NCBI GenBank assembly: GCA_020720045.1
Contig: DYPH01000023.1
Coordinates: 1-55,074, forward strand
Length of the DNA stretch: 55,074 nucleotides
Direction of reading: 5' to 3'
Origin: Sorangium cellulosum
GTDB taxonomy: Bacteria > Myxococcota_A > Polyangia > Polyangiales > Polyangiaceae
Position 1 is the stretch's first letter. Every line of letters begins with the position of its first letter. Made by a program: the position numbers and the translations under genes. The notes below the pieces were generated by a model. That model saw nothing but the letters and a program-made list of their open reading frames with translations. It had not been told where the DNA came from and made no database searches. Below, one piece after another: positions 1,370 through 6,564 of the stretch.

Positions 1370-2563
1370 ATGAAACGCGTCAGGGTCGAACTCCGCGCCG
1401 TCTCCCGCTTCGCGGACGGACGCGTTCTCCGATCCGTCGTCTCGCCGGGCGGAGACAAACGCGTCTGCTCGCCGTTTCCTCACCGCCTTCGGCGGTTCCG
1501 GGCGGACGAGCAGTTGCGCGTCACCGTCGCCGCGCTCGGCGTTCTGGCCGTGTTGGCGGGCGCCTGCGTGCCGACGGGCCCCGTCGTCCACGCCCCCGTC
1601 AGCGATCACTTCGATGGCGCCCGTTTTCACAACGTCCCTGAAGTCGGCAGTCGCGGCCTGGGGGATGTCCTCGCCTGGCAGCTCTTCGCAAAATCGGGGG
1701 TCCCCTGGCCCGATTGGATTTCGACGCCGCCCGGGGAAAAGCCGCCCGTCCGCGTGACGGAAGGGGTCCGGATCACACCGATCGGCCACGCGACGATATT
1801 GGTGCAGTTTGCAGGTATCAATGTGATGACCGACCCGATCTGGTCCGAGCGGGCGAGCCCCTTCGCCGGGGTTGGGCCCCCTCGCCACCGGGATCCGGCG
1901 CTCCGGCTCGAGGACCTCCCGCCCCTCGATGCGATCGTGATCAGCCACAATCACTACGATCACATGGATCTACCGACGCTTCGCGCGCTCGCCCCTCCGG
2001 GATCGCCGACGAAGATCTTCGTGCCGCTCGGCAACGCCGCCTTTCTCGCCGAGCAAGGCATCGAGGCGACCGATCTCGACTGGGCGACCGGCCCGGAGAG
2101 CTGCGCGTCGCTTGGCGGCCTGTCCGTCTGCGCGGTCCCCGCCCAGCACCATGCGACGCGGAGCTTGACCGACGAGAACCGCTCCCTCTGGAGCGGCTGG
2201 TACCTCCAGCGGGTCGGCTCGGCGGAGTCTGTGTATTTTGCAGGCGATACCGGCTTTGGGCCCCATTTTTACGGCATCCGCGAACAGTTCGGGAGCCCGT
2301 GCGTCGCTCTTTTGCCGATTGGGGCCTACCTGCCTCGCCCGTTTATGCGGATCCACCACATGGACCCGAAAGAGGCGGTCGTCGCGTTTGACGTCCTCGG
2401 CGCGAAGCACGGCGTCCCCATGCATTTCGGGACCTTCGACCTCTCCGATGAAGGCGTAGACGATCCGACCCGCGAGCTCGAAGCGTCACGCACGAAGGGG
2501 CGCGTCCGCGATTTTCTCTTTCCCGGTTTCGGCCACGGGCGCACCTTCCGCTGCGTGGACTGA
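1370..2563 (+). CDS. Metallo-beta-lactamase-fold lipoprotein (UlaG/NAPE-PLD-like hydrolase)
   Basis: This is a predicted zinc hydrolase of the MBL superfamily. The metal motif HNHYDH (HxHxDH) falls at residues 193-198 counted from the ATG at 1370, and it is followed by QHHATRS, the FAGDTGFG strand and a late MHFGTFD histidine, as in NAPE-PLD/UlaG-type enzymes. A hydrophobic stretch ending in LAVLAGAC is a good lipobox, so the protein is probably an envelope lipoprotein. The start is uncertain: the first 48 codons from ATG 1370 are mostly repeat DNA (1376-1463), whereas a TTG at 1514 would give a compact 17-residue signal peptide with the Cys at position 18. The gene's 3' end overlaps the convergent ferritin-like gene by 78 bp. 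The substrate cannot be told from the sequence. Confidence 0.85.
   Translation: MKRVRVELRAVSRFADGRVLRSVVSPGGDKRVCSPFPHRLRRFRADEQLRVTVAALGVLAVLAGACVPTGPVVHAPVSDHFDGARFHNVPEVGSRGLGDVLAWQLFAKSGVPWPDWISTPPGEKPPVRVTEGVRITPIGHATILVQFAGINVMTDPIWSERASPFAGVGPPRHRDPALRLEDLPPLDAIVISHNHYDHMDLPTLRALAPPGSPTKIFVPLGNAAFLAEQGIEATDLDWATGPESCASLGGLSVCAVPAQHHATRSLTDENRSLWSGWYLQRVGSAESVYFAGDTGFGPHFYGIREQFGSPCVALLPIGAYLPRPFMRIHHMDPKEAVVAFDVLGAKHGVPMHFGTFDLSDEGVDDPTRELEASRTKGRVRDFLFPGFGHGRTFRCVD
1376..1463 (+). repeat. Dispersed repeat, A unit followed by B unit
   Basis: Two modules lie head to tail between CGCG tetranucleotides at 1376, 1421 and 1460. Module A is 45 bp and contains GCGCCGTCTCCCGCTTCGC at 1395-1413. 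Module B is 39 bp and contains a near-palindrome GTCTCGCCGGGCGGAGAC at 1439-1456. The same modules recur with identical periods at 40184-40271 in inverse orientation, and B alone recurs as a tandem pair at about 25010-25087. The array lies at the 5' end of the metallo-beta-lactamase-fold gene and may be read as its first codons. Confidence 0.8.
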
Positions 2564-3958
2564 ATCCCCCAAGAGACCGGCAAGGATCGGCGCCACGATG
2601 GAAGCGACGCTGGCCGGGATCGTTACGTCGACGACGACCGGCACGACTTCCCTCGGGAACGCCTTCAAGAGCCACCCGAGTGTGCGGAACGCGAGCGCGG
2701 CGTGGCGTGCTTCGTCACGCGACAGATCTGTGTAAAACGCAGAGAGTTCCTCGGTCGGTGCCTCGGAAGCGTCGGTCGGCGAAGCGGGAGACGGCGCCGA
2801 TTTCACGGCAAACGCGCGTTCGAGGAGGCGAATGGCCGCCTCGGTTTCGCCGAAGCATCCGCCGCGAAGCACCGAGCGCGCGAGATCGGCGGCAAGCGTA
2901 TCGGGCGAAGAAAATCGAGCGGTTGCGGCGAGAAAGAGGCCCGGTTCTCGCGGGCTACCGGCCGCGCGCGCGAGGGCGAAGGCGAGCTCGGCGTGGCGAA
3001 TCTCGTCGGCGAGCGCCTCCTGGGTCTCTCGCAGCAAATCGGGCGGCGCGCCGAGGGCGATCAATTCGACGATCGTCCGCGCGAACGCGCCGATGCTCGC
3101 ATGCTCCTCGGCCGCCGCACGCGCGGCCGCCGCGCCGAGGCTTTCATCCGGCGAGACCGACAAGAACGTATATTGCCGACTCCAAGAGCCCGAAATAGAA
3201 CGAAGATCGGCGGTCTGTGGAACCTCGTCGACGTACAGCGGGCGCCCTTCCATGCATTGCGATTCCTCTTCGCATTCGAGCCCGTTTGCGCCCGGCATGC
3301 ATTTCATCCCGCCGGTGCAGTCGCGGTCCGACTTGCAGGAGTCCTTGTCGGAACCGCACACAAACGTCGCGGAGGTCGAGCAGCCGACGTCACGAACGAC
3401 GAGGAGACATTCCCCGGTGAAATGGGGATTCGCCGGCCCCGGCGCGCAGTCGGCGTCGGTGTGGCATCCGGCGTTCATGCAGGCGCCTCGCCCTTCTTGG
3501 TCGACGCTTCCGTAGTGAAACGCGGCGCGCTCGTCGGTGCTGCAGTTGCAAATTTGGTTGGCTCCACAGTCGCTGTCGGCGGCGCACGTACTCGTACATG
3601 CACAATAACTTTCCCCGAGAGCGCGACATGCCGTGCCGGGAGCGGTGCACTCTGCATCGGAATGGCACCCCGTTGATTGTGGCCCGCAGCGGGGGTCGGG
3701 GCTGTCGCTGCAACTCTCCGCTTCCGGTCGGTGGCGCCGGCCGTCCGCTTCGAGGGCGAGGAGCACCTTTTTCCGCGGCGGCGGCTCGGTTCCGTGCACG
3801 CTTGTTGCCGTCGGCGCAATCTGGACGGCGAACGGCTCAGGGACTTTCGTCGTCGGTGCGGCCGTCTCCGCGGCATGGCAGGCGGAGACGCCGAGGGCGC
3901 TCAGAATCCACGATTGAACCAAACGCACCGAAGCGGCCCGTCGCGACGAGGGGATCAT
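2486..3958 (-). CDS. Cys-rich ferritin-like lipoprotein, paralogue 1 (third in the operon)
   Basis: This 490-residue protein begins with a signal peptide whose LGVSAC sequence is a lipobox (Cys 27), then has about 200 residues with many spaced cysteines (patterns such as CHSDAEC, CAADSDC, CHTDADC), and ends in a ferritin-like helical domain. The predicted diiron ligands are all there: EEHAS near residue 286, EIRHA near 318, GETEA in helix 3 and DEARHA near 414. The ATG at 3956-3958 is chosen because the upstream extension overlaps the preceding gene and lacks a signal peptide, and it starts just after that gene's stop. Between helices 3 and 4 it has an extra Ser/Pro/Ala-rich loop encoded by DNA resembling the dispersed A repeat (2768-2816). 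The role is unknown; envelope iron or redox handling is an inference. Confidence 0.82.
   Translation of the reverse strand: MIPSSRRAASVRLVQSWILSALGVSACHAAETAAPTTKVPEPFAVQIAPTATSVHGTEPPPRKKVLLALEADGRRHRPEAESCSDSPDPRCGPQSTGCHSDAECTAPGTACRALGESYCACTSTCAADSDCGANQICNCSTDERAAFHYGSVDQEGRGACMNAGCHTDADCAPGPANPHFTGECLLVVRDVGCSTSATFVCGSDKDSCKSDRDCTGGMKCMPGANGLECEEESQCMEGRPLYVDEVPQTADLRSISGSWSRQYTFLSVSPDESLGAAAARAAAEEHASIGAFARTIVELIALGAPPDLLRETQEALADEIRHAELAFALARAAGSPREPGLFLAATARFSSPDTLAADLARSVLRGGCFGETEAAIRLLERAFAVKSAPSPASPTDASEAPTEELSAFYTDLSRDEARHAALAFRTLGWLLKAFPREVVPVVVDVTIPASVASIVAPILAGLLGDSVHAAEGAPVAETGKEKIADAPLRA
2768..2816 (-). repeat. Degenerate A-type repeat module inside a coding gene
   Basis: GCGAAGCGGGAGACGGCGC at 2779-2797 and CGGCAAACGCG at 2806-2816 are identical to the two halves of the A module at 40195-40213 and 40222-40232, with the same 27-bp offset between the half starts; only the bases between have diverged. 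It encodes part of a Ser/Pro/Ala-rich loop in the ferritin-like domain that the two paralogues lack. Confidence 0.65.
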
Positions 3959-3962
3959 CGAC

Positions 3963-5255
3963 TCACGCTGCCAGAAATTCGCCCACGAGAGGGAGGACGA
4001 GTGCACGAAGCACGGAAGATGCCCTCGTCTGCGATGCCGGGGAGTCCTCGGAGCCGGCAACCAGCCCGAGTTCTTCACGGACAATGCAAGCAACTACCGC
4101 CGGTTCCCGCGCATGGAGCCAGCGGAGCGTCTTCCAGGCGAGGGCCGCGTGGCGCGCCTCGTCGTCGGCGATTTCTCTGTAAAATGCACGCAACTCGGGA
4201 CCTCGCGCCTCTTGGGCACGGGTCGCGGCGTCGACGGCGGCGTGGGTTTCGCCGAGGCATCCGCCACGAAAAACGCTGCGCGCGAGCGATCCGACGAGCG
4301 CCTCCGGGGCGGCGAAGGGGGCCAGCGCCTCCGGGAAGGGGCCCGGTTCGACGTGGGCCCCCGCCGCACGTGCGAGCGCAAAACAGAGCCGCGCATGGCG
4401 GATCTCGTCGGCGAGGGCCGCCTGCGTCTCGCCAATGAGCGTCGGAGGTGCGCCAAGTGCCAGCAATTCCACAAGTGTTCGGGCAAAGGCCGCGATGCTT
4501 GCATGCTCGTCAAGGGCGTCCCTCACTGCCGTTTCGGCGAGGCTGGCGCGGGCGTCCGCGGAGAGGTCGCGGAGGTCGAAATTCCACCCTTCCGCGGTCC
4601 AACGGTCACCGTCGCGGATCGCCGCCGTTTGCGGACGACCATCGACATAGAGAGGGCGCCCCTTCACGCAGGAGTTATGGCCACAGTGAAGGCCGCCTCG
4701 GAAGGTGTCGCCAAGGCAGACGTCGGAATTGGTGCAATCTGCATCGTTGTGACAGGTGTCGTTGGCGGTTCGGCAGGCAAATCCAGGGGTCGTGTCGCTT
4801 CCGCAACCGGCGGTGAACTGAACGAGCGCGCATTCGGGGACGGTAGCGGCGGTCGGGAGCGTCGCGCACTCGCTGTCGTTTCGGCAGCGGGCGGGGATGC
4901 AGGTGCCGGCGCCCCCTTCCGCGCAATGGCAGGCGCTGCGGGCGTCGCAGTCGCCGTCGGTGGCGCAACGATGCCCGCGACTTTCGCCGCGTTCGACGGT
5001 GAAAGGGGCGCAAGTTTCGCCACTTACGCGGTGCCCGGTCCCGCCGCCGGCGCTCACAAAGCCGACTTGCGCCCGGGGTGGCGGCTCGGGGGAGGCGCTT
5101 TGGGCGGAGCCGACCACGAGCGTCGTCGCGACGAGCGTCGTCGCCGCTGGGGGCGCACTTGAGGACGCCACCTCGGGACTCCCCGCTCGGCAGGCGCCAA
5201 GGCCGAGAGCCGCAAAAAGGACGCTACGAACCTGCGCGATCGGCGGCGACGTCAT
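3963..5255 (-). CDS. Cys-rich ferritin-like lipoprotein, paralogue 2 (middle of operon)
   Basis: This 430-residue protein has the same plan as its two neighbours: a signal peptide ending ALGLGAC (lipobox Cys 22), a Cys-rich middle with repeated C-x4/5-D-C spacings, and a C-terminal ferritin-like bundle. Diiron ligands are DEHAS near residue 251, EIRHA near 283, GETHA in helix 3 and DEARHA near 365. The helix 3-4 loop is short, unlike paralogue 1. Its start overlaps the end of paralogue 3 by 32 bp and its stop lies 4 bp before the start of paralogue 1, so the three are almost certainly co-transcribed. Tandem duplication is the simplest origin. The Cys-rich part could bind metal or form disulfides outside the cytoplasm; no enzymatic assignment is possible. 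Confidence 0.85.
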   Translation of the reverse strand: MTSPPIAQVRSVLFAALGLGACRAGSPEVASSSAPPAATTLVATTLVVGSAQSASPEPPPRAQVGFVSAGGGTGHRVSGETCAPFTVERGESRGHRCATDGDCDARSACHCAEGGAGTCIPARCRNDSECATLPTAATVPECALVQFTAGCGSDTTPGFACRTANDTCHNDADCTNSDVCLGDTFRGGLHCGHNSCVKGRPLYVDGRPQTAAIRDGDRWTAEGWNFDLRDLSADARASLAETAVRDALDEHASIAAFARTLVELLALGAPPTLIGETQAALADEIRHARLCFALARAAGAHVEPGPFPEALAPFAAPEALVGSLARSVFRGGCLGETHAAVDAATRAQEARGPELRAFYREIADDEARHAALAWKTLRWLHAREPAVVACIVREELGLVAGSEDSPASQTRASSVLRALVLPLVGEFLAA

Positions 5256-6564
5256 AACGGTTCAGAATACCGCGCTCTTCCGCCCCTGCCGAGCGCTTCC
5301 CGGCGATCGCCGCCAAGAGGGGCTCCACAAGCGCGCTTCGAAGGGGATCGTCGGTTTGGGCGGCCAGCGTCTTGGCGATGGTCGCCGGCACACCGGGAAC
5401 GTCCCACAGCCAATCGAGGGTGCGCCAGGCGAGGGAGGCATGGGAGGTCTCCTCGGCGGCGAGTTCTTCATAAAACGCGCGCAGATCGGGGAGGGGAGTG
5501 GCATCCGCATCTGCCTGGGCGGCGAGCGCGGCGGCCGCTTCACCGAGGCATCCACCGAGGAAAACCGAAGACGCGAGATTGCTTGGAAGGTCATCGGCCG
5601 AGGCAAATGGCGTTAGGGCGGCTGCGAAGCGGCCCGGTTCGACGGCGCCCGTCGCGTCGGCCGCCGCCGCAAGGGCGAAGGTGTCCTGGGCGTGCCGGAT
5701 CTCTTCTCCGAGCGCCTTCTGCGTCGCGAAGAGCAGGTCGGGCGGTGCCCCCAACGCCATCAATTCCGCGATCGTACGCGCAAAGGCGGCGATACTCGCG
5801 TGCTCGTCGAGGGCCGCCCGCCGCGCCTTCTCCGCGAGCGCCCGGCGATCGGCCTCGGGCAGCGCGCGAAGATCGAAGCGACGGGCACCGTTCCAACGAC
5901 CGCCCTCGCGAAGCTCGGCGACCTGGGGGACCGCCTCTACATAAAGGGGGCGCCCACGAACGCAGTAGTGGATGCGCGCGCAGTGGAAACCGCCCTTCTC
6001 GTCGCCGAGGCATCGAAGCCCCTTTTCGCAATCGCCGTCGGCGACGCAGGTGTCGCTCGCCGTTCGGCACACAAAGGCTTCTCGCGTATAACAGCCGCCA
6101 GAAATGGAGGCAAATGCGCAGATATGCGCGCCATTCTTCCCCGCTTCGCAGTCGTCGTCGCTGCGGCAGGAGGCGGCCATGCAGCGTCCGGTTCCGTCGG
6201 CATCGCAGTGGCACGCCTCGGTGGCCGGGCAATCGTCATCGGTTGCGCAGAGACCTCGCCGCCCCTCGCAGGCCTCCGAGCTGTCGTCTTCTTCGCGGCA
6301 GGCGGGCCCCAGAAGCGGGGTGCATCGCTCGCCATGCACACGATGCGACCCAAGCAGATCCGAAACGAATCCAGGGGTATCCGTGCGATGGGGTGGTTCG
6401 GCGGCGAGCGTCGCGGAGGCATTCGGTCGCGAAACACTCACGGCAAGAACGGGAACTTCCGAAGTCCTTTCGGTAGTTTGCACGCCGGCGGTCCTGCACG
6501 CGCTTACGCCGATCGCGGCAAAGAGCGTCGTTCGGAGGAGCGCGAGCGTTTCAGGGCGGTGCAT
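5224..6564 (-). CDS. Cys-rich ferritin-like lipoprotein, paralogue 3 (first in operon)
   Basis: This 446-residue protein has a signal peptide with lipobox-like GVSAC (Cys 23), a linker containing an acidic CREEDDSSEAC segment, a Cys-rich domain (CHCDADGTGRC, CRSDDDC, CVADGDC) and a ferritin-like domain. Ligands are DEHAS near residue 255, EIRHA, GEAAA in helix 3 and EETSHA (an E-x2-H pair) in helix 4. It is the promoter-proximal gene of the three. A C-terminal tail of about 15 residues overlaps the start of paralogue 2. Upstream lies the divergent ribosomal operon across a 324-bp gap. Ferritin-like folds include iron stores, oxidases and hydroxylases; which applies here cannot be told. Confidence 0.85.
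   Translation of the reverse strand: MHRPETLALLRTTLFAAIGVSACRTAGVQTTERTSEVPVLAVSVSRPNASATLAAEPPHRTDTPGFVSDLLGSHRVHGERCTPLLGPACREEDDSSEACEGRRGLCATDDDCPATEACHCDADGTGRCMAASCRSDDDCEAGKNGAHICAFASISGGCYTREAFVCRTASDTCVADGDCEKGLRCLGDEKGGFHCARIHYCVRGRPLYVEAVPQVAELREGGRWNGARRFDLRALPEADRRALAEKARRAALDEHASIAAFARTIAELMALGAPPDLLFATQKALGEEIRHAQDTFALAAAADATGAVEPGRFAAALTPFASADDLPSNLASSVFLGGCLGEAAAALAAQADADATPLPDLRAFYEELAAEETSHASLAWRTLDWLWDVPGVPATIAKTLAAQTDDPLRSALVEPLLAAIAGKRSAGAEERGILNRYDVAADRAGS

Follow-up and report, generated by a model that had tools for sequence, protein, structure and literature searches.

Ferritin-fold dimetal oxidases are mostly cytoplasmic enzymes, and a few of them offer useful comparisons for the three array proteins described here, w1, w2, and w3. 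Cyanobacterial aldehyde-deformylating oxygenase (ADO), a cytoplasmic enzyme without signal peptide or Cys-rich region, resembles the ferritin-like domain of these proteins in size and fold and ranks among the first Foldseek rows for either model, but shares only 11 to 20% identity with it. The tRNA hydroxylase MiaE, which is likewise cytoplasmic and has no Cys-rich part, was the best single-sequence PDB match, covering helices 3 and 4 at a nonsignificant E value of 0.05. EncB, an encapsulin cargo protein from Myxococcus xanthus and hence from the same phylum, superposes on the domain through one hairpin (0.8 Å over about 56 residues, 34% identity), but it is short, contributes a single helix hairpin, and lacks both lipobox and Cys module. 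R2lox is the best structural match for the domain alone and likewise combines four Glu with two His in its dimetal site, yet identity is about 15%, and the lipoprotein anchor and the Cys-rich region belong to the w1-w3 family. In R2lox, the Tyr that forms the cross-link is Y162, and the third Glu ligand, E167, follows five residues later (PMC6399176). Among the residues listed for the equivalent position 337 there is no Tyr, this residue being Glu or Asp in 123 of 133 family members and Gly in w1, w2, and w3 (E337G), and membership in R2lox is therefore not claimed. TraA and other proteins with TIGR04201 repeats share Cys-rich repeats with the family, but where w1-w3 have a dimetal domain and a lipobox, TraA carries a PA14-like domain and MYXO-CTERM. 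The best explanation for the array, to which we assign a probability of about 0.5, is that its products are envelope-anchored dimetal proteins that activate O2 or peroxide and are carried on a disulfide-rich stalk.

The array lies on the minus strand of the window (the whole 55,074-nucleotide stretch analyzed), and the three tandem genes have the coordinates and strand given by the sequence-only reading. The first gene, w1 (5224-6564), encodes a lipoprotein of 446 amino acids with a Cys-rich region and a ferritin-like domain, followed by w2 (3963-5255; 430 amino acids) and w3 (2486-3958; 490 amino acids from its ATG, with a possible extension of the open reading frame to a TTG at 4093 in the list of open reading frames). 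The genes are arranged head to tail, and because w1 runs 32 bases into w2 and only 4 bases separate w2 from w3, they probably form one cotranscribed operon; a promoter scan gave no signal above chance. A metallo-β-lactamase (MBL)-fold protein and an MFS-like transporter are encoded to the left, and a ribosomal protein cluster with rplV at its head lies to the right. Among the array neighbors inspected, none encodes a reductase, a rubredoxin, or another redox partner, which counts against an oxidase role, and no iron uptake genes adjoin the array. The gene for the MBL-fold protein (Lactamase_B_2; window 1370-2563) is convergent with the array and carries a lipobox-like LAGAC near its start; the start at 1028 in the list of open reading frames is too early.

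The lipobox, the Cys-rich region, and the E/ExxH/E/ExxH series that had been noted earlier are present in all three proteins. Each has a signal peptide that ends in a lipobox Cys, as in bacterial lipoproteins, namely Cys23 in w1 (VSAC; 6496-6498, minus strand), Cys22 in w2 (LGAC; 5190-5192, minus strand), and Cys27 in w3 (VSAC; 3878-3880, minus strand). A stricter automatic lipobox pattern accepted w3 alone, since in w1 and w2 an Arg stands 12 positions ahead of the Cys. We expect each gene to give rise to a lipid-anchored extracytoplasmic protein.

The Cys-rich regions, all read from the minus strand, span 5962-6324 in w1, 4668-5012 in w2, and 3254-3712 in w3 and contain 18, 16, and 22 Cys, respectively, which are also the numbers from the lipobox to the GRPL motif and are even each time. 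Across the family, the most common number of Cys after the lipobox is 24 (41 of 119 members), with far fewer in some. In an alignment of 59 members, Cys columns 144 and 214 are both occupied in 40, both empty in 17, and singly occupied in 2, while columns 182 and 216 are both occupied in 57 and both empty in 2. The even counts together with the joint loss of these columns suggest that the Cys are paired in disulfides. Some family members have weak matches to the Myxo_Cys_RPT or Dickkopf_N models; for Myxo_Cys_RPT (TIGR04201), 15 of the 59 members match at an E value of 1 or below (best, 3.5e-5), and w1-w3 have no match at an E value of 10 or below. In the myxobacterial receptor TraA, Cys-rich repeats were proposed to act as a display stalk (PMC6372800). 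By analogy, we infer that the Cys-rich region of w1-w3 is a stalk as well, in which a disulfide-rich module of CxxDxDC-type repeats would provide stable support for the ferritin-fold domain.

This domain, together with the GRPLYV motif that precedes it, extends over 5227-5955 in w1, 3966-4661 in w2, and 2489-3247 in w3 (all minus strand). The ligand residues, on the same strand, are E254 (5803-5805), E288xxH291 (5692-5703), E342 (5539-5541), and E372xxH375 (5440-5451) in w1; E250 (4506-4508), E284xxH287 (4395-4406), E336 (4248-4250), and E366xxH369 (4149-4160) in w2; and E285 (3104-3106), E319xxH322 (2993-3004), E371 (2846-2848), and E416xxH419 (2702-2713) in w3. Conservation in homologues had been named beforehand as the point on which the proposed site could fall, and the proposal held, as all six ligands are kept in 131 of 131 complete relatives; 2 of the 133 aligned members are fragments that end early and were left out of this count. 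Because the 80 named loci were chosen by a pattern that already contains the first Glu and the His that follows it, only the other ligands provide unbiased evidence in these loci; the genome search picked its loci on whole-protein similarity. The Asp residues of the DExxH motifs beside the ligands are also conserved in the family alignment. Conservation, predicted fold, and ligand placement together support well the earlier view as far as a ferritin-like lipoprotein with two metals and a Cys-rich region is concerned; the metals, iron in that view, may instead be Mn or Mn/Fe. One distant paralogue encoded elsewhere in this genome (L154; G000:C129:60794-61411), which was found by the profile alone and is outside the 133 aligned members, has apparently lost several ligand residues, reading FAHASV, having no ExxH at the second position, and reading AHDGTAH at the fourth; judged by these residues, it may bind no metal.

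The isolated w2 domain was confidently predicted to be a four-helix bundle (pLDDT 93.1, pTM 0.90) with the ligands in mid-helix (model numbering, E52 in helix 35-68, E86 and H89 in 73-99, E138 in 119-151, and E168 and H171 in 155-185), and the full-length model of w1 has the same fold. By predicted fold and ligand set, the domain is a member of the ferritin-like superfamily, and the four Glu and two His would make up a putative two-metal site for Fe/Fe or possibly Mn/Fe. For the other point named beforehand, that the four ligand positions should face one site, the model gives indirect support. All 50 of the best 50 VIA-align entries for the w2 domain have a ferritin fold, in the order R2lox, ADO, R2, PaaA/PaaC, VlmB, and bacterioferritin, with the first two above the ferritins. 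The R2lox fold with its extra C-terminal helices aligned over 204 residues (6qrz; Z 15.3, 3.6 Å), within about 1 to 2 Z units of ADO (Z up to 14.1, 180 residues) and the others, among them R2 (Z 13.6), while bacterioferritin aligned over 145 residues of the core bundle alone (Z 13.2), and the spread in Z among R2lox, ADO, and bacterioferritin is only about 2. Helical bundles can reach a Z of about 13 to 14 through their common arrangement, and the domain scores near that level; since in addition no Foldseek row, including the top rows of acyl-ACP desaturase and ADO, had an E value of 0.001 or below, the enzyme class is a matter of inference. No natural protein of solved structure had a sequence match at an E value below 0.001.

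Oxidation with O2 or peroxide seems the most likely activity, because the domain is nearer to the O2-activating branch (R2lox, ADO, R2, and acyl-ACP desaturase) than to the iron-storing cages; an iron-storage cage is less favored, the R2lox and ADO matches being longer than the bacterioferritin match. A surface ferroxidase that handles iron, oxidizing Fe(II) outside the cell for capture or detoxification as do ferritins, bacterioferritins, and EncB-type proteins, would find some support in the E/ExxH/E/ExxH ligand set, which bacterioferritin also carries, in the presence of bacterioferritin and Dps among the structural matches, and in weak EncB matches in w1, in w2, and, for EncB_fam, in 18 of 59 members. 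We nevertheless consider it unlikely, given that the ferritin matches are confined to a core bundle of about 145 residues against about 180 to 204 for ADO and R2lox, that no iron uptake genes border the array, and that the EncB matches span one helix hairpin and lie far below the curated cutoffs (14.8 versus 210 bits for NF058678 in w1 and 17.9 versus 90 bits for NF058679 in w2). An oxidase on the cell surface, as we favor, would use O2 or peroxide to oxidize an envelope target, which may be a lipid or a small molecule.

Residues around the site set the array apart from its relatives. One turn of the helix ahead of the third Glu lies a Cys (w1 Cys339, 5548-5550; w2 Cys333, 4257-4259; w3 Cys368, 2855-2857; all minus strand). 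This position, three residues before the Glu, is Cys in 127 of 133 members, and the residue is probably free, since w1 and w3 have no other Cys apart from the lipobox one and the even-numbered set of the Cys-rich region. Position 247 is Trp in 115 members and Ala in all three array proteins (W247A), and w1 has the further changes D287E, T343A, and D371E. Beside the site, therefore, the copies depart both from the family and from one another, with all six ligands retained. The Glu or Asp common at position 337, near the third ligand, could serve as an additional carboxylate, as might be expected of a rubrerythrin-like envelope peroxidase that removes H2O2, and weak matches to the Rubrerythrin model (PF02915) occur in 26 of 59 members. 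However, this carboxylate is the very residue lost to Gly in w1-w3, the PF02915 match stays below the cutoff in w2 (18.8 versus 22.8 bits) and is absent in w1 and w3, and there is no rubredoxin domain or neighbor, which makes a peroxidase of this kind less probable still than surface iron handling.

No Pfam or NCBIfam model reached its cutoff in w1-w3, the 59 members compared with these collections have only scattered weak matches to several diiron families, and a literature search found no paper describing the family. We therefore place w1-w3 in a known superfamily, as a family not described before and with a new architecture, since they have the superfamily fold and ligands and lack the R2lox Tyr and cutoff-level matches to the Rubrerythrin and EncB models. 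The sequence-only reading had called such proteins uncommon, which the family's distribution contradicts: with w1 as a single query, matches were found in 40 of 59 relatives and in 118 of 282 genomes drawn from Myxococcota, often as many copies per genome, and a domain profile search gave 8 matches in the own genome and up to 23 in a relative. One peptide pattern retrieved 416 encoding stretches from the GTDB collection, the best 80 of which include Sorangium, Polyangium, Nannocystis, Enhygromyxa, and Plesiocystis. The sole non-myxobacterial name among these best 80 of 416 loci is that of a contig labeled Klebsiella pneumoniae (L107), whose member branches with Myxococcota genes and which is probably a mislabeled MAG. 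PLSDB plasmids held no family relative, and none of 16 pattern matches in IMG/VR was one, which argues against a mobile origin. The own genome also encodes ferritin-like paralogues with different, Cys-poorer N termini (L144, 2154-3551; L145, 18-1535; L153, 997-2109), at least two of which have a lipobox-like Cys.

The many divergent paralogues per genome, the Cys-rich repeats of the kind found in the recognition protein TraA, and the lack of a redox partner among the neighbors would also suit a structural or adhesive surface protein whose copies have diverged to serve recognition, in the manner of TraA, with any metals just stabilizing the bundle. Six fully conserved ligands, the DExxH Asp residues, and a near-invariant Cys exceed what a structural site usually needs, and we rank this as the least probable of the explanations considered. 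Extending the oxidase reading to the family as a whole, we tentatively suggest, as a possibility with the odds against it, that these are undescribed dimetal oxidases of the Myxococcota outer surface, present in many divergent copies per genome, that use a near-invariant free Cys beside the metal site and perform O2-dependent chemistry on envelope or prey molecules outside the cytoplasm. If this is true, a lipid-anchored family behind a Cys-rich stalk, with up to 23 matches in one genome and no Pfam or NCBIfam model, would account for a sizeable, unassigned share of the surface chemistry of myxobacteria.

Three tandem copies are an unusual arrangement, found in this genus only; adjacent members occur at 2 of the best 80 of the 416 loci (L079 and L122). 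The Polyangiaceae contig of L122 (3991-7672) carries two or three adjacent copies, and L037 (2-2112, from the genome search), which belongs to a different member of the order, carries two. A sister species of the same genus (G001) carries this array too, in matching surroundings, with 95% DNA identity over 15 kb. Nei-Gojobori dN/dS values against this species are 0.115 for w1, 0.156 for w2, and 0.166 for w3, and the two species share 20 of 20, 19 of 20, and 24 of 24 Cys, respectively, indicating that all three genes are maintained as proteins. A quick tree built from 133 domains groups the six array proteins of the two species with one gene from another genus in a single set (SH-aLRT 100%); the place of the seventh gene within it is weakly supported, and its surroundings differ from those of the array. 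The simplest reading of these sequence relationships is tandem duplication within this lineage followed by divergence of the three copies, in which case diversification would have centered on the surroundings of the site.

Full-length identity to w1 is 48% for w2 and 42% for w3, and domain identity to w2 is 50% for w1 and 55% for w3. It had been proposed that three copies imply dosage or diversification, and of these, diversification is favored by the 42 to 55% identity, the purifying selection, and the shared derived second-sphere changes, whereas dosage as the main reason is not, because copies kept for dosage are expected to be alike and w1-w3 are too divergent, differing even beside the site. 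When the neighbors of the 80 loci were clustered, the clusters fell among close orthologues, plus one kinase-like cluster in 8 loci; kinases are abundant in myxobacteria. Almost no neighbor recurs beyond close orthologues in these 80 loci, which speaks against a conserved genomic partner, and adjacency to rplV/rpsC is confined to the sister species among the loci checked, so that a link to the ribosomal locus was also rejected. Between rpsS and rplV, the S10 ribosomal operon is broken: rplV heads the cluster in the window (6889), while rpsS lies on another contig (L157; G000:C342:9755-10042), followed by nonribosomal open reading frames. In relatives, the two genes are on separate contigs in G006, G014, and G019, and are separated by about 11 kb in G021 and by 1.6 kb in G033.
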